45,834 nt of DNA from Oceanospirillum beijerinckii DSM 7166 (GTDB taxonomy: Bacteria; Pseudomonadota; Gammaproteobacteria; Pseudomonadales; Halomonadaceae), in NCBI RefSeq assembly GCF_000422425.1, contig NZ_KE383830.1, forward strand, positions 1 to 45,834, read 5' to 3'. The notes beneath the pieces are model-generated. The model saw only the letters and a program-made list of their open reading frames with translations. It made no database searches and was not told the DNA's origin. The translations under genes and the position numbers were made by a program. This document shows, in pieces, positions 22,582 through 35,209 of this stretch. How positions within the stretch are numbered: the first letter of the stretch is position 1; each line of letters begins with the position of its first letter.

Positions 22582-23793
22582 ATGAGTCAAGTGAGGAGTC
22601 AGGGAGTTGCTACACCTCCTGCAATGGCTATCTTTGCCGGCGTGGTTGCTGCCCTGGTTATCTGGGGTGCAGGCAACTATTTTCAACTTAATCCCCATGC
22701 CTGTTTTGTCATCGCGTTGCTTGCTTTTATTGGTGCTTTATACTTTGTTAGTGGCCTTTTGCAGAACGGTGAAAGTCCCGCTGGTAATCTCAGTAGCCCT
22801 GCTGAGCAGTTAGCAAAAGACACCTCGGCAACCTTTAATGACTTTTCAATCAGTCTTGCTGTGGAGTTTAAAGAGTCTAAAGAAGAGATTGAACAAGTTA
22901 AAAACCTACTCGATGAAGCAATCAGTCAGCTGATTGTCAACTTTACCGAAGTGCATAATAAGACTCAGCAGCAGCAGGAATTGAGTAATAGGATTACTAA
23001 TCAGCTTGCGGGTGGTGAGAGTGTCGATTCTATCTTCTCCACATTTATTAATGATACCACCGAGACATTTGAGGTCTTTATGGATAATGCAGTCCAGGCC
23101 AGTAAGTTTGCGATGGGTTTGGTGGATATCATGGATGAGATGGCTGGAAAAATTGGTGGTATTGTTAAGCTATTGGATGAGATTGATGATATCGCCGATC
23201 AAACAAATTTACTGGCGCTTAATGCTGCGATTGAAGCCGCGCGAGCTGGTGAAGCTGGCAGGGGGTTTGCGGTTGTAGCCGATGAGGTAAGGGCTCTCTC
23301 CCAGAAAACGACCCATTTCAGTGATCAGATTCGGTCACTGATGTCCGATTTACATGCATCTTTTAATAGTGCTGATACGTCGATTCAGCGTATTTCTTCA
23401 GTCGATATGGGCTTTGCCAGTGAGTCGAAAAAACGTATAGAGGGCGTTATGGGGCGCCTGGAAGAGATTAATCATGAGTCCTCTCTGGCGCTTGAAAATC
23501 AAAGGGCCCTAGCAAGTGAGGTTGATGAGAATATTAATCAGGCGACCACTGGTTTGCAGTTTCAGGATATGACCTCTCAGTTACTGAATCATACTAATAC
23601 TCGACTGGAAGTGATCCATGATTTGATGGAAGAGCTGGGGCATATGACTCGAGAAGACAGTGCCAAGAGCTCTCATGAAATTCTTGAGCATATTCGTGGC
23701 CGTCTAAAAGAGACGCGTGAAAAAATTAATAGTATGAAGCATAACCCAGTGGCTCATGAAAATATGAGCTCTGGAGATATTGAACTTTTTTAA
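22582..23793 (+). CDS. MCP-like chemotaxis signalling protein with CheZ-like motif
   Basis: A 403-residue protein with two N-terminal membrane helices (about 13-31 and 40-58) joined by a very short loop, hence no periplasmic sensor domain. The receptor hairpin tip is clear: [20 protein letters not shown] followed by [18 protein letters not shown] (about 202-239). After it comes FQDMTSQ (327-333), which resembles the catalytic FQDLTGQ of the CheY phosphatase CheZ (D143/Q147 in E. coli). The protein ends SSGDIELF, about 70 residues later. It is the first gene of the che cluster, in the place occupied by CttP in the P. aeruginosa Che2 cluster. It probably docks in the same array as the Aer2-like receptor. 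The start has AGGAG upstream. Confidence 0.82.
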
Positions 23794-23828: not shown

Positions 23829-24194
23829 ATGGCCAAAAAAATTCTGACGGTAGATGATGCAGCCTCAATTCGTCAGATGGTAGCTTTCACTCTGAAAGGT
23901 GCTGGCTATGAGGTGGTTGAAGCCGTAGATGGTCAAGATGGCCTGAATAAGGCAAAGACAGCACAGTTTGATCTGGTGCTGACCGATCAAAATATGCCGA
24001 AGATGGATGGTTTAACCCTGATCAAATCGCTACGTTCAATGCCTCAGTATCGCAGTACACCAATTCTGATGCTGACCACAGAGTCTGGTGATGATATGAA
24101 GGCTAAAGGGCGCGCAGCTAAGGCAACAGGATGGCTGGTTAAGCCGTTTGATCCTTCTAAACTTCTTGAAGTTGTTAAAAAAGTAGTGGGTTGA
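23829..24194 (+). CDS. cheY: Chemotaxis response regulator CheY
   Basis: A 121-residue stand-alone receiver. The acidic pocket is D9/D10, the acceptor D53 (LTDQNMPKMDG), the switch MLTTE and the lysine WLVKPFDPSK. The ATG at 23829 follows a good Shine-Dalgarno (TTGGAGGA) and begins MAKKILTVDD; an upstream GTG-type start would add four residues without need. It sits directly before cheA. The sequence is of the short CheY type paired with F7/Che2-like CheA rather than a diagnostic flagellar-motor CheY, so its output target is open. Confidence 0.92.
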   Translation: MAKKILTVDDAASIRQMVAFTLKGAGYEVVEAVDGQDGLNKAKTAQFDLVLTDQNMPKMDGLTLIKSLRSMPQYRSTPILMLTTESGDDMKAKGRAAKATGWLVKPFDPSKLLEVVKKVVG

Positions 24195-24224: not shown

Positions 24225-26783
24225 ATGTCATTTGATTTAAGCCAATTTAATCAGCTTTTCTTTGAAGAAACTGCCGAGCATCTGGCGACAATGGAAAGCT
24301 TGATGCTGAATATGGATGTTCAGCAGCCGGATATGGATGATTTGAATGCCGTATTCCGTGCTGCTCACTCCATTAAAGGGAATAGCGGTACTTTTGGCTT
24401 CCATGACATGACAGATGTCACTCATGAGTTGGAAACCTTACTTGACCTGGTACGTAAAGGTGAAGCAGATCTGACTGATGAGATGGTGGATGTCACCCTT
24501 CAGGCTGGCGATGTGCTTAACGGGTTGCTTAAAGCGCATCAGGAAGGTGGTGAACCTGACCTTGAACCTTCCAGGTTGGTCCTTGCTGAGTTAAATGTGC
24601 AGCTTGCAAAAGCTAAGGGCGAAGAAGCTGCTGTTTTGGAGCCAGCTAACCAAACAGCGTTGCGTTCTATCCCCGAGAGTGCTGATAATTCAAGCAGTGC
24701 CGGGCTGGTCTCACCAAGTGATTCTGGCCTTGAATCCAGTCAGACTGATATTAACCAGTCTTTTATTATCAGTTTTCCCAACCCTGGTGATGATACCAGT
24801 ATGTTATTTGATTCCCTGCGTGAGCTAGGTGAACTAAATATCATCGATTCTCCCGAAAATGGCGGTGATGACTGGCTGTTTTCCCTCCAGACTGAGTCTG
24901 CAAAAGACGATATAAGAGAGTTATTAGCTTTTCTTGTTTCACCGGAAGGCATCTCAATAGAAGAAGAGTTGGCTGCGGATGATGGTAGCTTTGGCTTTTT
25001 TGAAGACGTTGGCGATAATTCTGCGGCGGTAACGGAAGATGATCTGGGTTATGGGTTCTTTGATGATATTGATCTCAAAGAAGATGATCTTGGATACGGT
25101 TTTTTTGATGAACCAGACCCCAAAGAAGATGACCCTGGTTATGGCTTTTTCAATGATCTTGATCGTGTAGATGGTGATCAGTCGGGTGCTTCTGTAGAAG
25201 AGAATAAAAGTGAAGCCGCTAAAGAAGATCCAGGATTTGGCCTCTTTGATAGCGAGGATGAGGATGATACGCCATCTCATGACGAAAGCGCGCTGGAAGA
25301 TGCCGCTTCTATTAACGATGCAGTGAGTGTGGCATCCGAAGGTCCCTCGGTCCCTGATACGCAGGATAGGGGGGCAGTAGCCTCTACTCAGAAAGAAGGC
25401 AGCGAGTTCGATGGCTATGGTTTCTTTGAAGCTATCGATGACAAGAGTGATAGCACGAAACAGAAAAGTTCAACTGTAGGGGCAGGGGCAAAAACTCCAT
25501 CTCCCAAAGTGGAGCAGGTTACGGCAAAGTCTCCATCTGCAGATAAATTACCAAGAAAAGCCTCCGCTCCGGCTAAAGCAGCTAATACCGAGTCATCAAT
25601 CCGTGTCAGTGTGGAAAAGGTTGATCAGTTGATCAATCAGGTTGGTGAGTTGGTGATCACGCAGGCAATGCTGACACAGATGGCATCAGAGGTTGATCCT
25701 ATTCTACATGAGCGTATGGCAAATGGACTGGCGCAACTGGAGCGTAATACCCGGGATCTTCAGGATTCTGTGATGTCTATACGCATGATGCCTATTAGTT
25801 TGGTGTTTAGTCGTTTTCCTCGGGTTGTGCGTGATCTGGCCAGTAAATTAAACAAGAAGGTTAAGCTTGAAATGGTGGGGGAAAACACTGAGCTTGACCG
25901 GAGTATGATTGAGAAATTGACTGACCCGCTGACCCACCTGATCAGAAATAGTCTTGATCATGGCATTGAGGCACCAGATATCCGCACAGCGGCAAGTAAA
26001 GACTCTACCGGCACGATTTTGCTTCGAGCATCTCATCAGGGCGGTAATATTGTTGTTGAGGTACAGGATGATGGAGCGGGCCTGAATCGTGAACGCATCA
26101 TGTCTAAAGCGGTTGAAAAGGGAATCCCTGTATCAGATTCCATGCCCGATGGTGATGTGTGGCAGCTGATTTTTGCACCAGGTTTTTCCACTGCGGCTGA
26201 AGTAACTGATGTGTCAGGTCGCGGGGTTGGCATGGATGTTGTAAAAAGAAATATTACATCCTTGGGGGGGCGGCTTGAAATTGAGTCAATTGAAGGTATC
26301 GGCACCCGTATTAGTATTCGTTTGCCGCTGACTCTTGCCATTCTTGATGGATTGCAAGTGGCGTTAGGGGATGAGATTTATATTGTTCCACTGACCAGTA
26401 TTATAGGCTCAATGCAGCCAGAACACACAGATATTAAAAGTGTGAGTGGTGAAGGTGCGGTAATTGCTATTCGAGATGAATATCTGCCAATTATTCGCCT
26501 CAGTGACCTGATGAATATGCCTGGTCAGTTTACCGATTTTGAACAGGGAATTATGGTGATTCTTGAGTCTGACGGTCAAAGAGTCGCCCTGTTTGTAGAT
26601 GATCTGGTTGGGCAATCGCAAGTGGTAATTAAGAGTCTGGAGGCCAACTATCGCAAGGTAGATGGTGTATCAGGGGCAACCATATTAGGCACAGGTCGTG
26701 TGGCGCTTATTCTGGATGTTGCTGAAATTATTAGCATGCATAAAAAGCGGGCTAAAAAACATTTAAAGAGTGTGCTTGCGTAG
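24225..26783 (+). CDS. cheA: Chemotaxis histidine kinase CheA with repeat-bearing linker
   Basis: An 852-residue kinase. P1 Hpt (1-130) has phosphoacceptor H48 in [12 protein letters not shown]2-like domain lies at about 178-240. A long acidic linker (about 250-455) carries six GYGFF-type motifs, three of them in exact 15-residue repeats. P3 dimerisation (about 457-520, [16 protein letters not shown]), P4 ATPase (N-box [11 protein letters not shown] 572-582, [14 protein letters not shown]) and P5 CheW-like (about 700-850) follow. All catalytic boxes are intact. It should phosphorylate CheY, CheB and perhaps the receiver of the REC-PP2C protein at the end of the operon. The gene starts 30 bp after cheY. 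Confidence 0.93.
25035..25169 (+). repeat. Three 45-bp in-frame repeats in the cheA linker
   Basis: Three consecutive 15-codon units (residues 271-285, 286-300, 301-315) each read ED-D-(L/P)-GYGFF-(D/N)-acidic. Three more copies of the core motif occur singly: SFGFFED 255-261, GFGLFDS 337-343 and GYGFFEA 397-403. Confidence 0.85.
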
Positions 26784-26791
26784 GGGGAAGC

Positions 26792-27304
26792 ATGGCTGAG
26801 CAAGTTGTAGATAGCCAAGAAGGCAATGAGTTTGGTCGCCTTTTAGGCCAGGAGTACCTGACTTTTTCTCTGGGCGAAGAGCACTATGCTGTTGATATCC
26901 TGAAAGTGCAGGAGATTCGGGGGTATGGTGCAGTTACCAAAATTGCTAATGCGCCTTCCTTCATTAAAGGTGTGATCAACCTGCGTGGTGTGATCGTGCC
27001 GATTATTGATCTAAGGATTAAGTTTAACGTAGGTGACGCTCACTATGATGAGTTTACTATCGTGATTGTGCTTAATCTTGCTGATCGTGTGGTGGGTATC
27101 GTCGTTGATGGTGTGTCAGATGTGGTTAGTTTGGGTGGCGAACAGATTAAGAATCCACCGGATTTTTCCGCTAACTTTGATTCTGAGTACATTTTGGGGC
27201 TGGCAACTGTTGATGAGCAGATGCTGATTATCGTGGATATTGAAAGACTGATGTCCAGTGAAGAGATGGCTCTGGTTGATAAAAGTCGGATGCAAGCGGA
27301 ATGA
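26792..27304 (+). CDS. cheW: Chemotaxis coupling protein CheW
   Basis: A 170-residue adaptor that links receptors to CheA in the array. The CheW fold is complete: [20 protein letters not shown], then the conserved [20 protein letters not shown], and a C-terminal [20 protein letters not shown]. Length is normal. The gene begins 8 bp after cheA. A short extra C-terminal tail ([12 protein letters not shown]) has no assigned role. Confidence 0.94.
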
Positions 27305-27356
27305 GCATAAAAGAATTTTCGTATAGAACACGCGGGTTCAGTTGGAGAACGGGCAA

Positions 27357-30300
27357 ATGAGTAATAAAACTTCGATTCGCTCCAAGCTGCTAAGTGTAGC
27401 CTTTTCAGCAGGTGCACTGGTTGCTGCAGGTGCTCTTGTCACCGTTTTAGGTCAGGGCGAAAACATTATATATATCGCATTGGCTCTGGAAGCTGCAGCT
27501 TTATTGGTTTTATTTGCGGGTGCGCGCTCGGTGCTCAATCAAGTAGACCAGCCTGTACATCAGTTGATGGCAGTGGCTAAGCAGATGGCTGATGGCAAAG
27601 CTCCAACGGATACTGTGCCCGTCATTGATAATGAGATTGGTGCTGTCATTCGAATACTGAGTGACTCTCAGGATGGCCAGCAGAAAAAATACCAGCATGA
27701 CCTGGAAGAACAGCAAAAGCAGCGACAGAAAGAGGCCCGTCAGCTGGAAGTTTTGAGTCGTATCAAGCGCGGCCTTGATGTGGTCAACACAAATGTAATG
27801 ATTGCAGATGCTGAACTTAACATTATCTATGTTAATGCTTCAATCCAGCGCATGTTGAGAGAACGTGAAGCTGATATTAAGGCAAATCTTCCGCACTTTG
27901 ATGCAGGTAATTTAATTGGGAAGAATATTGACATATTTCATCGCAACCCAAATTACCAGCGCAAGCTGTTGGCTGGCCTGGGAAATGCCCACAAGGCCAA
28001 AATTAATGTTGGAGATACTACGTTTTCCCTGGTAGTTCACCCTATCGGAAGTAATGGCGAGCGTCAGGGTTACATTGTTGAGTGGGAAGATTTGACTGAC
28101 ACTCTGGTTCGTGAGGCAAGAGAAGCTCAGTTACGTGATGAGCAAGTTCGACTGTTAGAAGAAACTCAGCGTATTCGTAAAGGATTAGATGTAGTTAATA
28201 CCAATGTGATGATCTCCGACGCTGATCTGAACATTATTTATGTTAATGATTCTATTCAGGTCATGCTTAAGCGTAATGAGCCAGAGATTCAGAAAGAGCT
28301 GCCTCATTTCGATGCTAGCAACCTGATCGGTCAGAACATTGATGGTTTCCACAAAAATCCTGAAATGCAGCGCAAGATGCTTAAAGGGTTGGAGTCGACT
28401 CATAAGACAACCTTGGCGATTGGTGACAGTTCATTTGCTCTTGAAGTTAACCCCATAGGCGGTCGGGATAATCGTCAGGGGTTTGTTGTTGAATGGAAAG
28501 ATATGACTGAGACTTTGGCTATGGAGGCTAAAGAGGCTCAGTTTAAAGAAGAGCAGAAGCAGATATTGGAGGAAACGCAACGCATACGTCGCGGCTTGGA
28601 TGTTGTTAATACCAATGTGATGATATCGGATGCTGATCTGAATATTATTTATGTTAATGATTCAATTCAGGAAATGCTGAAACATAATGAGAGCGAGATT
28701 CAAAAAGAGCTGCCTCATTTTGATGCAAATAACCTAATTGGTCAGAATATTGATGGTTTTCATAAAAACCCTGAAATGCAACGTAAGATGCTTGCAGGCT
28801 TGCAAGACACTCATAACGCCACTTTGAAAATAGGTGACAGCACTTTTGCGCTTCAGGTTAATCCGATTGGTACGCCGAATAATCGCCAGGGATTTGTAGT
28901 TGAATGGCGGGATATGACAGAAGTTTTGCGCCGAGAAGCCGCAGAAAAAGAAGCTTTGAAAAAGCAGACTGAGCTTGCAGAAGCTAATCATCGTATACGC
29001 AATGCTTTAGATAATGTGTCCAGTAATGTGATGATGGCGGATAATGACGGTAAGCTTATCTATGTGAATAAGGCATTAAAAGAGATGTTCCGTGCATCTC
29101 AAAGCCAAATTCAGCAGGTTTATCCGCATTTTGATGTAGATAATCTAATTGGTCAGAACTTTGATGGTTTCCACAAAGATCCCTCTCATCAGCGTCGTAT
29201 GGTCGCTGGTATGACAGGTACTCACCATGCCAAGCTTTCCATTGCTGGCCGACACTTTGCATTTATTGCTAACCCAATTTTCAACGAGAATAATGAGCGT
29301 TTGGGTACAGTGGTGGAATGGTCTGACACGACAAGTGAAACCCAGGCTCAGGCTGAGATTGCGGATATTGTAGAAGGTGCAAGTCGTGGTGACTTTAACC
29401 GCCGCATTAATACTCAGGGTAAGGACGGCTTCTTTGAGGAGCTGGCAACCGGCATTAATAATGTAATGGAAACCACCTCTGACGGTTTATCTGAGCTTGC
29501 CCGGGTGCTGGGGGCTATGTCTCAAGGTGATTTGACTCAGAAAATCGATAAAGATTTTGATGGCATGTTTGGTCAGCTCAAGGGCGATGCCAACGCTACT
29601 ATTGATCAGCTGTCTGGTATTGTGACTCGCATTAAGGAAGCATCTGATGCGATTAACACAGCATCCAGTGAGATTGCTGCGGGTAATAGCGATCTATCCC
29701 AGCGCACGGAAGAGCAAGCTTCAAGTTTGGAAGAGACAGCGGCTTCTATGGAGCAATTGACTTCTACGGTACAGCAAAATGCTGAGAATGCTTCTCAGGC
29801 AAATAGTTTGGCTCAGGGCGCGAGTAGAATTGCTCAGAAAGGCGGTGATGTTGTTAGCCAGGTGGTCAGTACAATGCGTACCATCAGTGATAACTCAAAA
29901 CAAGTAGAAGAGATTATTAGTGTCATTGACAGTATCGCCTTCCAAACTAATATTCTGGCATTGAATGCTGCTGTTGAAGCTGCAAGGGCTGGTGAGCAGG
30001 GTCGAGGTTTTGCAGTGGTGGCTACAGAAGTCCGTAACCTGGCGAAACGCAGTGCGGGTGCTGCGAAAGAGATTAAGGAGTTGATTGTTACTTCTGTTGA
30101 TACTGTAGATGAAGGTTCCAAGTTGGTTGATGATGCAGGTACCACAATGAAAGATATTGTGGATGCGATTGGCCAGGTAACCAGTATCATGACTGAGATC
30201 TCTGCTGCTTCTGAAGAGCAGCGTTCAGGGATTGAGCAAGTGAATACCGCAATTACCCAGATTGATGAAGTGACTCAGCAGAATGCGGCCTTGGTTGAAC

Positions 30301-30545
30301 AGGCTGCTGCTGCTGCTGAGTCTACTGAAGAGCAAGCGCGCTCCTTGGTTAACTCTGTGAGCTTGTTTAAGCTGGACGCTAATGCCAGCTACTCGGCAGC
30401 AATAGAGTCTCCGGTTGTGGCAACTCAAAGCCAAATTAAATCTGAACCAGTTATTTCTCCTGTGAAGAGTGCACATCAAGGCATGTCACCTGGCTCAACT
30501 AAGCCAGCTAGTTTAAGGGATGACGATGACCGGGAAGAGTTCTAA
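27357..30545 (+). CDS. Aer2-like chemoreceptor with four tandem heme-type PAS domains
   Basis: A 1062-residue methyl-accepting protein from ATG 27357 (GGAG nine bases upstream; a TTG at 27342 is an alternative). Two N-terminal helices (about 12-55) are followed by a HAMP-like linker and four PAS domains spaced exactly 137 residues apart. Each has FH(R/K)(N/D)P and a late (V)EW: H195/W243, H332/W380, H469/W517, H606/W655. In P. aeruginosa Aer2 a PAS with this kind of His (H234) and Trp (W283) binds heme b and O2. A poly-HAMP segment (about 665-775) and the signalling hairpin ([20 protein letters not shown]) follow. The C-terminus is DREEF, a degenerate CheR-tether. Position between cheW and cheR matches aer2/mcpB of the Che2 cluster. 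Gas sensing (O2, possibly NO or CO) is inferred. Confidence 0.87.
27759..29345 (+). repeat. Four tandem PAS-encoding units of about 411 bp
   Basis: Units begin at about 27759, 28170, 28581 and 28992, each opening with codons for R-I-(K/R)-x-(G/A)-L-D. Units two and three are the closest ([20 protein letters not shown] in both), with many synonymous differences between them, as expected of an older duplication kept by selection. Unit four is the most diverged. Confidence 0.85.
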
Positions 30546-30608: not shown

Positions 30609-31433
30609 ATGCAGGCTGATCAATTGAGTAGAGAGTTTCATTTTACAGAGGATGACTTCCTCATAATCAAGGATTTGATATATAAACGGGCGGGTATCAA
30701 TCTTGCAATTTCTAAGCGGGATATGGTTTATAGTCGACTTTCACGTCGATTGAGAGCAAACAAACTAAGAACATTCCAGCAATATCTCGCACTGCTGAAT
30801 GATCCCAAGGGTGATGAGCAACAAGAGTTTGTTAACTCCTTAACGACTAATCTAACCTCATTTTTTCGTGAGGCCCATCATTTTGATATTCTCAAAGAGT
30901 TTCTTCAGGATAGGAAAACGCCAGTAAAGATCTGGTGCTGTGCTGCTTCTACGGGAGAAGAACCTTATTCCATCGCCATGGCATGTGCAGAGCACTATCA
31001 AAGCTTTCGTCCTCCGGTTGAAATCTGGGCTTCAGATTTAGACACAAAGGTGCTGGCTAAAGCCGAAAAAGGTATCTATTCTTTTGATAGAGTAGAAAGG
31101 CTTTCAGATCAAAGGCTTAAAGCATTCTTTTTTCGTGGAAAAGGTGATAATTTAGGACTGGTTAAAGTAAAATCAGAGTTACAGGATATGATTCGTTTTT
31201 TCCAACTAAATCTGTTGGATAAACGATGGCCTTTTAATGAGCAGTTTGATGTCATTTTTTGTCGCAATGTCATGATTTACTTTGATAAACCGACGCAGCG
31301 TAATGTGCTGACAAATTTTCTGCCTCATATAAAAGATGATGGCTTGTTGTTTGCGGGACACTCGGAGAGCTTTCCTCAAGCATCAGACCTTTTTACTCTT
31401 CGTAGGCATACGGTTTATACAAAAGCCCGCTAG
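30609..31433 (+). CDS. cheR: Chemoreceptor glutamate methyltransferase CheR
   Basis: A 274-residue S-adenosylmethionine-dependent methyltransferase that methylates glutamates of chemoreceptors. The N-terminal helical domain (about 10-75) contains YSRLSRRLRA. The SAM motif is WCCAASTGEEPYSIAM, with later DVIFCRNVMIYFDKPTQ. There is no TPR extension. AGGAAGAG precedes the ATG. It follows the Aer2-like receptor gene, but the receptor's tethering pentapeptide is altered, so docking may be weak or may use other receptors. Confidence 0.94.
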   Translation: MQADQLSREFHFTEDDFLIIKDLIYKRAGINLAISKRDMVYSRLSRRLRANKLRTFQQYLALLNDPKGDEQQEFVNSLTTNLTSFFREAHHFDILKEFLQDRKTPVKIWCCAASTGEEPYSIAMACAEHYQSFRPPVEIWASDLDTKVLAKAEKGIYSFDRVERLSDQRLKAFFFRGKGDNLGLVKVKSELQDMIRFFQLNLLDKRWPFNEQFDVIFCRNVMIYFDKPTQRNVLTNFLPHIKDDGLLFAGHSESFPQASDLFTLRRHTVYTKAR

Positions 31434-31483
31434 TATAAAGCGAAATATGATATTTCGGCAGCTTGGGTGTTGAGGCGGATTTT

Positions 31484-32092
31484 ATGGAAACGTTACATGA
31501 AGCGGCACAGCCAAAAGTTTATTTTGATCGTCAGTTCAACTGCCAGGTTGCTAAAATTCTCCCGGGTGAATTTTATGTGACTTCAGCAGATATGGCCATC
31601 AGTACTGTACTGGGTTCCTGTGTCTCTGCTTGTATCCGGGATAAACGCTTGAATATTGGGGGCATGAATCACTTTATGTTGCCCGGCAATTCGGATGTGT
31701 ATAATCCTCTTAGTGCTTCAGCGCGTTATGGTAGCTATGCCATGGAGATTTTAATCAATGAAATTCTTAAACGTGGTGCCAGTAGAGAAAACCTTGAAGC
31801 TAAAGTGTTCGGCGGTGGTAATGTGATCAAGTCAATTACCACAAGTAATGTGGGGCAACGGAATGCTAAGTTTGTTGTCGATTATTTAGGCTTTGAATCG
31901 ATTCCTATCGTTGCACAAGATTTAATGGATAGCTGTCCCAGGAAAGTAGTTTTCTTTCCAAACACTGGGAGAGTTTTAATGAAGCGACTGCACAATGAGC
32001 GTATTGATCGTGAGATTGTGGCGGTCGAGAATCGCTATAGTCAAACAATTGGCGCAGAGCCTGTCTCTAATGATATTGAACTGTTTGACTGA
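31484..32092 (+). CDS. cheD: Chemoreceptor glutamine deamidase CheD
   Basis: A 202-residue protein from ATG 31484, with GAGG about 10 bases upstream; a TTG seven codons earlier (31463) also opens the frame. The catalytic Cys and His of CheD are visible in STVLGSCVSACI and IGGMNHFMLP, with FGGGNVI further on. CheD deamidates receptor glutamines and in some bacteria interacts with CheC; no CheC is here. The protein ends NDIELFD, nearly the same tail as the MCP-like first gene of the cluster (GDIELF). Confidence 0.92.
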   Translation: METLHEAAQPKVYFDRQFNCQVAKILPGEFYVTSADMAISTVLGSCVSACIRDKRLNIGGMNHFMLPGNSDVYNPLSASARYGSYAMEILINEILKRGASRENLEAKVFGGGNVIKSITTSNVGQRNAKFVVDYLGFESIPIVAQDLMDSCPRKVVFFPNTGRVLMKRLHNERIDREIVAVENRYSQTIGAEPVSNDIELFD

Positions 32093-32104: not shown

Positions 32105-33160
32105 ATGGGTTTAATTATGATTGAGGTTGTAATTGTTGATGACTCAGCCTTAATAAGAAATCTGCTACGGGAGATTATTGACTCTCAGCCAGATATGAAG
32201 GTGACAGGTCTGGCTAATGATCCCATTGAGGCAAGGGAGATTATTCGTCAGGTTGATCCTGACGTCATTACATTGGACGTAGAGATGCCGAAAATGCATG
32301 GATTGGATTTTCTGGATAAATTGATGCGCCTGAGGCCGACACCTGTTGTTATGATTTCAACATTGACAACGCTGGGGTCGGATACAACTATACGGGCATT
32401 AGAACTTGGTGCAATCGATTTTGTGGCTAAGCCTAAAGTTGGTGTGGTCGGAGAGCTTAAAGCTTATACAGAAGAGATATGCGGAAAAATCCGTGTTGCG
32501 GCTCAAGCAGGGCCTCGCTTAGCTAAGGTTAGAAAGCAAAGCGGTAGAGCGACAGCTGCCCCGAAGAAAGAGATTCATTTCAAGCCCAGAGCACTGCAGA
32601 AATATATCGCTATTGGTTCTTCAACAGGAGGAACGGAGGCGATCAAGTCGTTCCTGATGCCGCTGCCTGAAACAACGCCTCCAATCGTTATTACTCAGCA
32701 CATGCCGCCTGGTTTTACCCGAACCTTTGCGGAGCGAATGAACGATATCTGTCGTTTATCCGTTAAAGAAGCAGAAGAGGGTGATATATTGAAGCCGGGC
32801 TGTGCCTATATAGCTCCTGGTGATCGTCATATGAAAGTGGTTCGTTGTAGCCGTGGGCTAAAAATTGAACTGGACAATGGCCCCTTGGTTAACCGACACA
32901 AGCCTTCAGTCGAAGTATTGTTCGATTCGACTCTGCCTTTTGCAAAAGACTTTGTTGGTGTGATTTTGACTGGAATGGGGGCTGATGGGGCCGAAGGCCT
33001 CAAACGTATGAGAGAGGCTGGAGCTCGCACACTGGGGCAGGATGAAAGCAGTTGTGTTGTGTATGGTATGCCTAAGGCTGCAGCAAAAATTGGTGCAGTA
33101 GAGTTTGTTGAGTCTTTGCAGAATATGCCAGCAAAGATTGCAGAAATTATGAACACCTAG
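32105..33160 (+). CDS. cheB: Protein-glutamate methylesterase/deamidase CheB
   Basis: A 351-residue response regulator with an N-terminal receiver (D12/D13 pocket, acceptor D58 in TLDVEMPKMHG, lysine FVAKPK). The C-terminal methylesterase has its catalytic triad in IGSSTGGTEAI (Ser), ITQHMPPGFT (His) and LTGMGADGAEG (Asp). It removes methyl groups from receptors for adaptation. The ATG at 32105 has AAGGA just upstream; a second ATG four codons later lacks one. It closes the adaptation set cheR-cheD-cheB. Confidence 0.94.
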   Translation: MGLIMIEVVIVDDSALIRNLLREIIDSQPDMKVTGLANDPIEAREIIRQVDPDVITLDVEMPKMHGLDFLDKLMRLRPTPVVMISTLTTLGSDTTIRALELGAIDFVAKPKVGVVGELKAYTEEICGKIRVAAQAGPRLAKVRKQSGRATAAPKKEIHFKPRALQKYIAIGSSTGGTEAIKSFLMPLPETTPPIVITQHMPPGFTRTFAERMNDICRLSVKEAEEGDILKPGCAYIAPGDRHMKVVRCSRGLKIELDNGPLVNRHKPSVEVLFDSTLPFAKDFVGVILTGMGADGAEGLKRMREAGARTLGQDESSCVVYGMPKAAAKIGAVEFVESLQNMPAKIAEIMNT

Positions 33161-33183: not shown

Positions 33184-33489
33184 ATGAATATTCAAACCTC
33201 AATTAGTCATGATCAGAGCCTGATGCGTATGAGTGGGCGATTTGATTTTAATGCCCATAAAGTTTTTCGCGAAACCTACCAGCAACTGTTGGATAACAGT
33301 GCAGTTAAGAGTTTGACTCTGGATCTGAGCCAGGTTGAGTACTTGGACAGTTCTGCTTTGGGGATGCTGCTACAACCTAAAGAGAAAGCAGATGCTTTGA
33401 ATAAAGTGATCAGATTGCAAAATTGCTCGCAGTTGGCTAAAGATGTGCTGGCGATAGCCAACTTTGACAAGCTGTTTGATATTTCCTGA
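33184..33489 (+). CDS. STAS-domain anti-sigma-factor antagonist-like protein (HsbA-like)
   Basis: A 101-residue single STAS domain. The phosphorylatable serine motif is seen as VEYLDSSALGMLL. Such proteins switch partners with a serine kinase and are reactivated by a PP2C phosphatase. Here the next gene, 13 bp downstream, encodes both activities in one response regulator, as in the P. aeruginosa HsbR-HsbA pair. The target that this protein releases or sequesters (an anti-sigma factor, or a diguanylate cyclase as for HsbA) is not in the window. Confidence 0.88.
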   Translation: MNIQTSISHDQSLMRMSGRFDFNAHKVFRETYQQLLDNSAVKSLTLDLSQVEYLDSSALGMLLQPKEKADALNKVIRLQNCSQLAKDVLAIANFDKLFDIS

Positions 33490-33502: not shown

Positions 33503-35209
33503 ATGCGTATTTTGGCTGTAGATGACACTCGTGCAAACCTGGTCTTACTGCAAGCAATGCTGAAAAGAGCCGGGCATGAGGTGGTCACCGCGGAGAATGG
33601 AGAGCAGTCTCTTGAAGTATTCGAGATAGAGGCTCCTGATTTGGTGTTGATGGATGTGATGATGCCTGGAATGGACGGTTTTGAGGCAGCCCAGAGACTT
33701 CAGCAGATGGCTTCGCCGCGTTGGGTGCCAATCATTTTCATCTCAGCCGCTGCTACCGAAGAATATTATATCAAGGGTCATCAGTCTGGTGGCGCTGACT
33801 ACCTGTTTAAGCCAATTAATCAGGTTATTCTTAATACTAAGATAGAGGCTATTAAACGTATTGTTGACATGCAAAATACGTTAGCTAATCAAAACAAGGT
33901 ATTGCAGGAGTATGTTGAAAAAGACGAAGAGGAGCGTCGTATATCTCGTCATATCATGGAGCATATGGCGGAAAGTAAGGGGCTGGATGATCCTCTGATT
34001 AAATATATGCTCTCACCTGCAGAGCAGTTTAGTGGCGATGTCCTGTGTGCAGCGCGCTCGCCCAGTAACCGTCTTTACCTGTTGATCGGAGATGCAGTCG
34101 GTCATGGTTTAGCCGCTGCAATCAATACTATTCCAATTTCAGGGACATTCTACCCTATGGTCTATAAAGGCTTTGAGCTGCCGACCATAGGTCGCGAGCT
34201 TAATCGCCGGATCAAGGAAACCATGCCGACAGGTTGTTTTGTAGCTTGTGGTATCGTCATGGTCGATCCTATGGAGTCTTATGTTGAAGTTTGGAATGCT
34301 GGTCTGCCGACATTCTATTGTATTGACTCTTTTGGCAATGTGATGGATACCTTTGAGTCCAGTCAGTTACCTCTTGGGGTATTGTCTGGCTCACAATATG
34401 AGGTTGAGAGCCAAATTGTGCCATACATGCCTGGTAATCAGATTGTTGTTTTCTCAGATGGATTGATTGAGGCAGAGAATAGTGAGCAAGAATTTTTCGG
34501 TGTTGAGCGTTTGCTATCTTGCCTGAACCATCCCGAAAACCGTATGGATGATATTAAGCATGCTTTGGAAGAGTTTCTGGGCGATGAGAAGCCTCATGAT
34601 GATGTAACTTTGGCATTGATTGATATGCCATTCCAGGATCAAATCAGTAGCTATGCAATAGAGGCGCGATCGGAGCAAGCAACTCCTCAGGCTGGTATCG
34701 AAGAAACTGATGATATTCAGTGGCAGACCAGTTTCCATATGGGAGCCGAAGAGATTAAAAACCTTGACCTGACGCCTATGCTTCTTAGTGTAATTACTCA
34801 ATTCAAAGGTGTGGAGTCTCATAATCAAAAGCTATTCCTTATTTTGTCTGAACTATTAAACAATGCGCTGGATCACGGGTTACTCGAGCTGGATTCTTCT
34901 CTAAAAACAGGACCTGATGCGTTTGAAACCTATCTGAATGCTCGTCACGAGCGCTTGGCTGCTATGACTCAAGGGTATATTGTTATCAGTGCCCGCAAGA
35001 TACGTTTGCATGATGAGCTTATTCTGCGTCTAACTATTGAAGACAGCGGTAAAGGCTTTGATCACAAGAAAGTATTGGAGAATGCAGGCGAAAGTGTGCA
35101 GATGCATGGGCGTGGTATTAAGCTGGTTCAGCAGTTATGCCGGGGGATGAAATACAGCGAAACCGGCAGTTCCGTTACCGTTGATTACACCTTAGATCAT
35201 TTAGTTTAA
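33503..35209 (+). CDS. Response regulator REC-PP2C-HATPase, HsbR-like partner switch
   Basis: A 568-residue cytoplasmic protein. The receiver (1-120) has D7/D8, acceptor D51 and lysine FKPIN. A helical linker (about 120-150) leads to a SpoIIE/RsbU-type PP2C phosphatase (about 160-370) with metal aspartates in SGDVL (D179), GDAVGHG (D197), SDGLIEAEN and DDVTLAL. The C-terminal HATPase (about 420-565) is RsbW-like, with SELLNNALDHG, EDSGKGFD and GRGIKLVQQL. Both opposing enzymes look active, so phosphorylation of the receiver could choose between dephosphorylating and phosphorylating the STAS protein just upstream. This domain order is that of P. aeruginosa HsbR. CheA is the nearest kinase; HptB-type input is the known alternative. 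Confidence 0.87.
   Translation: MRILAVDDTRANLVLLQAMLKRAGHEVVTAENGEQSLEVFEIEAPDLVLMDVMMPGMDGFEAAQRLQQMASPRWVPIIFISAAATEEYYIKGHQSGGADYLFKPINQVILNTKIEAIKRIVDMQNTLANQNKVLQEYVEKDEEERRISRHIMEHMAESKGLDDPLIKYMLSPAEQFSGDVLCAARSPSNRLYLLIGDAVGHGLAAAINTIPISGTFYPMVYKGFELPTIGRELNRRIKETMPTGCFVACGIVMVDPMESYVEVWNAGLPTFYCIDSFGNVMDTFESSQLPLGVLSGSQYEVESQIVPYMPGNQIVVFSDGLIEAENSEQEFFGVERLLSCLNHPENRMDDIKHALEEFLGDEKPHDDVTLALIDMPFQDQISSYAIEARSEQATPQAGIEETDDIQWQTSFHMGAEEIKNLDLTPMLLSVITQFKGVESHNQKLFLILSELLNNALDHGLLELDSSLKTGPDAFETYLNARHERLAAMTQGYIVISARKIRLHDELILRLTIEDSGKGFDHKKVLENAGESVQMHGRGIKLVQQLCRGMKYSETGSSVTVDYTLDHLV

Follow-up and report, generated by a model that had tools for sequence, protein, structure and literature searches.

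The window analysed here, a stretch of 45,834 nucleotides from Oceanospirillum beijerinckii DSM 7166 (within contig C11 of the genome), carries a chemosensory gene cluster in the order mcpA-cheY-cheA-cheW-aer2like-cheR-cheD-cheB-STAS-SpoIIE (Table 1). Its gene content is the F7 set given in the part of the 2020 F7-evolution analysis available to us, and its order matches neither the stage 1 nor the stage 2 arrangement published there (PMC7184735). The same source names the membrane-anchored receptor of F7 clusters McpA-like (CttP/PA0180, VCA1088) and describes its role for the F7 system as unclear (PMC7184735). Compared by description with PA0180/CttP, VCA1088 and SO_2117, the product of the first gene of the window cluster has the same place in the F7 gene set, a membrane anchor with an MCP signalling domain, and an unusual MCP hairpin; it is this F7 cluster's McpA-like receptor. 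In Pfam the MCP signalling domain is the sole model to score above cut-off in this protein, with no such match for HAMP or a sensor domain. VCA1088 of Vibrio belongs to the 24H class in the accessible text of PMC7534058, and arithmetic on that class, applied to the window protein, would place its hairpin roughly at residues 136-304. The PAS/HAMP receptor further along the cluster contains several near-repeated PAS segments ahead of its HAMP and MCP domains.

Table 1. Features of the mcpA-like gene and of the surrounding F7 cluster, in window coordinates.
Feature	Position	Strand	Basis or remark
mcpA-like gene	22582..23793	+	403 aa; MCP signalling domain 107.6 bits (Pfam)
Two probable membrane-spanning helices, residues 14-33 and 38-63	22621..22770	+	Inferred from sequence hydrophobicity; AlphaFold2 helices
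N-terminal helix of the proposed base module, residues 96-143	22867..23010	+	Alignment; model helix 73-143
Kinase-binding tip of the MCP hairpin, residues 208-239	23203..23298	+	Invariant block in alignment
FQDMTSQ, residues 327-333, with D329/Q333 of the CheZ-like DxxxQ	23560..23580	+	Translation, alignments
Tail GDIELF, residues 398-403	23773..23790	+	Translation, alignments
cheY of the F7 cluster	23829..24194	+	35 bases past the mcpA-like stop codon
cheA	24225..26783	+	
cheW	26792..27304	+	
PAS/HAMP/MCP receptor in the position of the Aer2-like receptor of F7 clusters	27342..30545	+	Name from PMC7184735 (source available in part)
cheR	30609..31433	+	
cheD	31463..32092	+	End SNDIELFD; DIELF at 32072-32086
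cheB	32105..33160	+	
STAS protein, anti-sigma-factor-antagonist type	33184..33489	+	
Response regulator with SpoIIE-type serine phosphatase and HATPase domains	33503..35209	+	

A sequence-only reading of the window had picked out the peptide FQDMTSQ in this MCP-like protein as resembling the active site of the CheY phosphatase CheZ, with about 70 residues between it and a C-terminal DIELF. Translation confirms the motif, with D329 encoded by GAT at 23566 and Q333 by CAG at 23578, and the GDIELF end lies 70 residues past Q333. A bare D...Q is present in 73 of 80 C-terminal regions of other MCPs and thus carries no meaning alone. The longer pattern [FY][QEHG]D...Q was found in 72/76 C-terminal regions of the family, in 0/80 of those of other MCPs and in 0.5% of shuffled family sequences, which argues against a chance occurrence.

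We searched genomes of the same class with a profile of residues 250-403 (E<=1e-6) and obtained matches in 91 of 369, the window's own genome among them; across the phylum, a profile of the shorter relatives described below (E<=0.001) matched in 106 of 398 genomes when weak matches are counted. Many long members sit after cheB, away from cheY. An alignment was made of the window protein and 68 long homologues that share 23-71% identity with it. Its rows had been picked by profile score, tip pattern and length, without regard to the motif, and 69 of the 72 picked were used. Mean column identity in this alignment is only 28%. The 22 invariant positions within the kinase-binding tip are partly a matter of construction, because rows were selected with a tip pattern, whereas the invariance of the motif is not; outside the tip, only Q326, D329, Q333 and F403 are invariant. 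In the N-terminal helix of the proposed base module, A113, L117, F121 and Q131 are invariant or nearly so. An unfiltered count took all profile matches at E<=1e-5 (185 ORFs) and reduced them to 171 non-redundant complete proteins with no motif filter. The aspartate is present in 171/171 of these proteins, the glutamine in 170/171 (one has R), Q326 in 170/171 and a terminal F in 168/171, counts that carry a mild bias because the profiles came from motif-bearing proteins. The motif is therefore strongly conserved among orthologs, by the unfiltered count as well as by the alignment. A separate set of 158 rows had been selected with a motif pattern, so that its full count for D and Q (158/158) follows from the selection.

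The orientation of the two residues was examined on a helical wheel, by a hydrophobic-moment analysis that omitted D and Q and used a period of 3.5. Relative to the centre of the hydrophobic core, D and Q lie at 128 and 180 degrees in McpA, at 126 and 177 degrees in CheZ, and at 101 and 152 degrees in the short relatives, so both face the outer side of the helix, as they do in CheZ. Burial of D329/Q333, which would speak against a catalytic role, was thereby addressed indirectly, with an outward placement as the result. Modelled with AlphaFold2 from the 69-row alignment, the window protein has predicted helices at residues 14-33, 38-63, 73-143, 148-358 and 364-385 (mean pLDDT 79.8, pTM 0.45). 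In the model of a short relative (148 aa, 39 rows, mean pLDDT 80.2), helices span residues 18-60 and 69-114, with a short helix at 137-141, and D89/Q93 lie on the second. Foldseek with this short model returned mixed helical proteins; none of the PDB matches reached E<=0.001, and CheZ was absent from the 50 of 358 rows listed; a PDB sequence search with the C-terminal profile gave a best E of 0.035 and no chemotaxis protein among 21 matches. We propose that the protein contains a base module, placed between the membrane anchor and a short MCP hairpin, in which an N-terminal helix (~96-143) would pair with a C-terminal helix (~304-358) that is followed by a linker and then by the GDIELF tail. 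In a dimer, two such helix pairs could form a four-helix bundle.

In E. coli CheZ, D143 contacts the CheY active site and Q147 positions the attacking water. The absence of a canonical cheZ, to which the sequence-only reading had pointed, holds for contig C11, where no match was found at E<=10, but not for the genome, since contig C2 carries a canonical cheZ (240 bits) behind a cheY-like ORF, its product containing GYQDLTGQ. The notion of a genome without cheZ was accordingly rejected. Of the 91 genomes with a family member, 80 were tested for CheZ, and 73 of them have one above cut-off; with CheZ present in these and in the window genome, a second phosphatase is not strictly needed.

Whether the resemblance reflects common ancestry was addressed with profile methods. 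The window protein has no CheZ match at E<=10 in Pfam or NCBIfam, and the best family member scores 23.7 bits with the Pfam CheZ model (PF04344), or 27.8 for the same place in another scan, against a cut-off of 30.7. Among eight members scanned with this model, L291 (4.9e-5), L303 (0.0066) and the short L256 (0.014) gave matches, all below cut-off, and the other five gave none; the first five short relatives likewise had no Pfam CheZ match, with one weak NCBIfam match (0.013). HHalign of 69 CheZ against 116 family sequences reached a probability of 76% with D/Q aligned to the CheZ catalytic pair, compared with 6-18% for the C-termini of other MCPs and 4-6% for reversed alignments. With the seven motif columns masked, the value fell to 33% in a different register. 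Median CheZ-profile scores were 6.0 bits for 171 family regions, 4.8 for 80 regions of other MCPs and -1.0 for shuffled sequences, a modest excess of the family over other MCPs (p = 0.013, one-sided), and 57/171 family regions reached at least 8 bits as against 9/80. In 130 of the 171 regions, the best alignment to the profile matches the family D with the catalytic D of CheZ. When the CheZ profile was run against the pooled ORFs, the 13 rows below 60 bits among the matches listed stood for 11 distinct proteins; every one of them belonged to the family, with 2e-5 as the best value.

These results do not establish sequence homology with CheZ, as there is no family-level match and the HHalign value is driven by the motif. 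Convergence of the motif and remote descent from CheZ are both possible. Derivation of the module and CheZ from one ancestor, which concerns descent, is compatible with a phosphatase function and was weighed separately from the functional alternatives, appears conceivable to us at somewhat less than even chances: the placement of D on D, the HHalign value and the Pfam matches down to 4.9e-5 favour it, whereas every match lies below curated cut-offs, masking the motif loses the register, and the tails differ. The likenesses between CheZ and the window protein are a DxxxQ on the same outward face of a helix, F-Q preceding the D, a distance of 70 residues between the Q and the C-terminus (76 for the genome's own CheZ) and a gene beside cheY. 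Unlike CheZ, the window protein has an MCP tip and a membrane anchor, and the family accompanies F7-type cheY whereas CheZ accompanies the F6 type. An AXXF(Y)Q motif adjoins DXXXQ in CheZ according to the available part of PMC7750401; in the window protein F327-Q328 are present and the A is absent (G324), and most listed homologues have FE, not FQ.

The C-terminal tail did not behave as the sequence-only reading had supposed. DIELF had been taken as the counterpart of the CheY-binding tail of CheZ, but by the letters it is unlike the VDDLLxSLGF of CheZs and is common to F7 CheD; we rejected it as evidence for a CheZ-like function, and it need not bind CheY. A tail pattern ([DEGSNT][IVA][EDST][LIVF]F, followed by no more than one residue) was found in 165/190 family ORFs, 33/46 CheD ORFs and 1/7576 unassigned ORFs. 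It occurred in none of the CheA (61), CheB (81), CheR (52), CheW (43), CheY (190) or CheZ (63) ORFs, nor in those for Aer2-like (66), STAS (56), phosphatase (75) or GGDEF/EAL (34) proteins. Of 38 F7-type CheDs (E<=1e-61), the last four residues match [IV][DE]LF in 34; in one the peptide lies five residues further in, another carries a variant of it, and it is missing from two, of which L311 comes from a genome with the module described below. None of 12 more distant CheD copies has the tail. Among five F7-type CheDs in genomes without a module match, three (G446, G447, G455) carry the tail, which is thus independent of the module. In the window and in many other genomes the McpA-like and CheD tails are nearly the same peptide, for which a shared docking partner would be the simplest reading, with CheY7, CheR and CheB as candidates. 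DIELF might be a variant of the CheR-binding pentapeptide (NWETF or GWEEF), but short relatives without a methylatable hairpin keep DIELF. In the accessible text of PMC7184735, cheD and the F7 cheY are lost together in stage 5. On another contig of the window genome, a different MCP (L002:778-2457) also ends in GEDIELF. A stretch of this MCP is the genome's best non-CheZ match to the CheZ model (17.4 bits), and it is without the [FYL][QE]D...Q pattern.

The tail brings into view an alternative in which the DxxxQ face and the tail are a binding surface, the module capturing F7 CheY, CheD or CheR at the array as a sink, scaffold or localisation adaptor. The tail end is, like the motif, nearly invariant and is common to CheD, and the S. 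meliloti protein CheT, which also has a DXXXQ, complexes with CheR as reported in the part of PMC12654446 available to us. However, D and Q are near-strictly kept, in the CheZ orientation on an outward helix face, in a family of so low a column identity, and we consider a pure binding role unlikely.

Relatives that have the proposed module but not the receptor part proved informative. Eight proteins of 150-268 aa without the MCP hairpin (L069, L070, L071, L072, L073, L191, L193 and L197) retain the tail and an LQFxDxxxQ helix or a close variant of it (MQFADMVDQ in L069); the N-terminus of L191 has two hydrophobic stretches that resemble the long form's membrane helices. For L072, L073, L191, L193 and L197, cheY is the first recognised gene to follow, while L070 and L071 are placed after cheB, in genomes (G170, G283) where CheZ had no match at E<=1e-5; around L069 no che gene was recognised. 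HHalign of the C-terminal regions of short and long forms gave 99.5% (E 1.3e-22); the two are homologous. In another class of the same phylum, for which the set comprised 17 proteins and the MCP domain was judged by Pfam for five, L453, L457 and L458 (325-328 aa) keep the motif and tail and have no MCP-domain match at E<=0.01 (Pfam), and L465 and L469 retain the domain.

We followed the short form in the family of L072 by searching one genome per genus, which gave matches in 37 of 60 genomes, G261 itself (the genome of L072) included. All reach the C-terminus except that in G454, which is partial and weak. The first recognised gene after the module is a same-strand cheY in 34 of the 37 genomes (loci L169-L188 and L241-L260, 20 each; the two sets overlap in 6 genomes, and G449 and G454 fall outside them). 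The gene after that cheY is cheA in all 40 loci but L188, whose contig stretch is short. The 35th genome (L300:2594-4602) has two tandem pairs of cheY and a phosphatase-like gene, in the order cheY6-cheZ-module-cheY7-cheA. The module-adjacent cheY is 59-72% identical to the window cheY (20 loci, L241-L260), compared with 31-39% for the cheZ-adjacent cheY of the same family in 29 of 30 loci. By tally, the 37 genomes with the module have CheZ in 34 and CheD in 37, and the 23 without it have CheZ in 6 and a CheD match in 7.

Named records of the short form among the best 80 of 458 relatives come from Rhodoferax, Curvibacter, Hylemonella, Acidovorax and other Comamonadaceae; a record titled Akkermansia is probably a mis-binned contig. 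Among these best 80 of 458, a cheY more than 50% identical starts -31 to 126 bases past the module in 75, and the loci were retrieved by patterns holding the motif or the tail, so their counts of 80/80 and 79/80 are partly by construction. Loss of mcpA is placed at stage 3 in the accessible part of PMC7184735. Our observations suggest that, in at least one family of beta-proteobacteria, mcpA did not simply disappear but survives as a module of ~150 aa; none of the Pfam or NCBIfam models scored above its cut-off for this module in the proteins that were scanned. A quick tree of 131 rows, with the largest short clade thinned (L084, L129, L137, L138, L139, L158 and L160 are long proteins in its labels), needs six changes, of which well-supported branches force only one. 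Several independent losses of the MCP hairpin are likely but not proven, and the direction of change, loss as opposed to gain, rests on MCP homology.

The short relatives also bear on the possibility that the window protein is just an ordinary short McpA/CttP-type chemoreceptor, with the motif as a structural signature that has no enzymatic meaning. Such a receptor would fit the MCP domain score, the link of the P. aeruginosa homologue to trichloroethylene taxis (PMC9855816, PMC7534058) and the association of homologues with F6 kinases, as far as these sources were available to us. The retention of motif and tail where the hairpin or any MCP-domain match is gone, and the absence of the longer motif from all 80 other MCP C-termini, stand against this alternative, and we judge it improbable.

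On sequence grounds, we think it reasonably probable that the McpA-like base module is a CheZ-like phosphatase for the F7 CheY, bearing an MCP tip in most of its long versions. From the phosphatase proposed by the sequence-only reading, this keeps the almost invariant outward DxxxQ, the adjoining cheY and the retention of the module without the tip; the tail no longer contributes. Catalysis calls for just such a pair: a D and a Q four residues apart, near-strictly kept, that face outward with the orientation seen in CheZ. By analogy with CheZ, D329 would contact the active site of CheY, Q333 would position the attacking water, F7 CheY would be the substrate, and the MCP tip may place the activity in a receptor array. 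In the accessible text of PMC7184735, stage 1-2 F7 clusters have cheY and no cheZ, and only F6 systems have cheZ in stage 1-2 organisms; our data propose a missing signal-termination step for F7 and would give McpA-like receptors a job. In a literature search that mostly left subscription journals outside, and in sources partly available, we found no report of a phosphatase motif in McpA-like receptors or of receptor-less McpA forms.

The nearest precedent for such a phosphatase is CheT, which, in the portion of PMC12654446 available to us, lacks clear sequence similarity to known chemotaxis proteins, has a CheZ-like model and dephosphorylates one of two CheYs. Compared by description, CheT and the McpA-like family are both che-cluster proteins with DXXXQ; unlike the family, CheT is alphaproteobacterial and has no MCP-fused form described in that portion. 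The CheY-P phosphatases CheC, CheX and FliY would share the job of the proposed module, but differ in fold and motif from the CheZ type, and the window protein has no Pfam match to them. CheC acts together with CheD.

A fuller scheme can be built on the phosphatase proposal, although we regard it as speculative and, as a whole, rather unlikely. Homologues of the McpA-like receptor sit in the F6 array and cluster with F6 kinases (PMC7184735, PMC9855816, PMC7534058), and the S. oneidensis homologue was found in complexes with the F6 kinase CheA3 (PMC9855816), in the parts of these papers available to us. McpA-like proteins may thus be receptor-phosphatase hybrids in which the tip docks in the F6 (motility) array and the module dephosphorylates F7 CheY, so that the state of the F6 array would set F7 output; the tail shared with CheD might make phosphatase and deamidase compete for one docking site; and, where the beta-proteobacterial F7 system took over the motor, the receptor part would have been cut away and the phosphatase would have stayed with CheY. 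If true, this would be an analogue, built from unrelated parts, of the Bacillus CheC-CheD-CheY-P feedback. Within the accessible text of PMC9855816, removal of McpA from S. oneidensis left swimming unchanged, which speaks against the phosphatase proposal. The increase in swimming on its overproduction was rejected as evidence for a phosphatase, as three other MCPs had the same effect (PMC9855816).

Several further loci were noted during the searches. Eight proteins (L163-L168, L291 and L303) form a second, distant subfamily with LQFQDRxxQ or a similar sequence and tails mostly ending in FF; L163-L168 and L303 lie directly before another type of cheY, and no recognised che gene stands beside L291. 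This subfamily possibly belongs to another chemosensory class. One che cluster has two different McpA-like genes, one on each side (L144 and L149). Another locus (L151) carries two tandem F7-like gene sets, each with its own McpA-like gene, cheY, cheA, cheW and aer2-like gene, the second set extending past the stretch covered.
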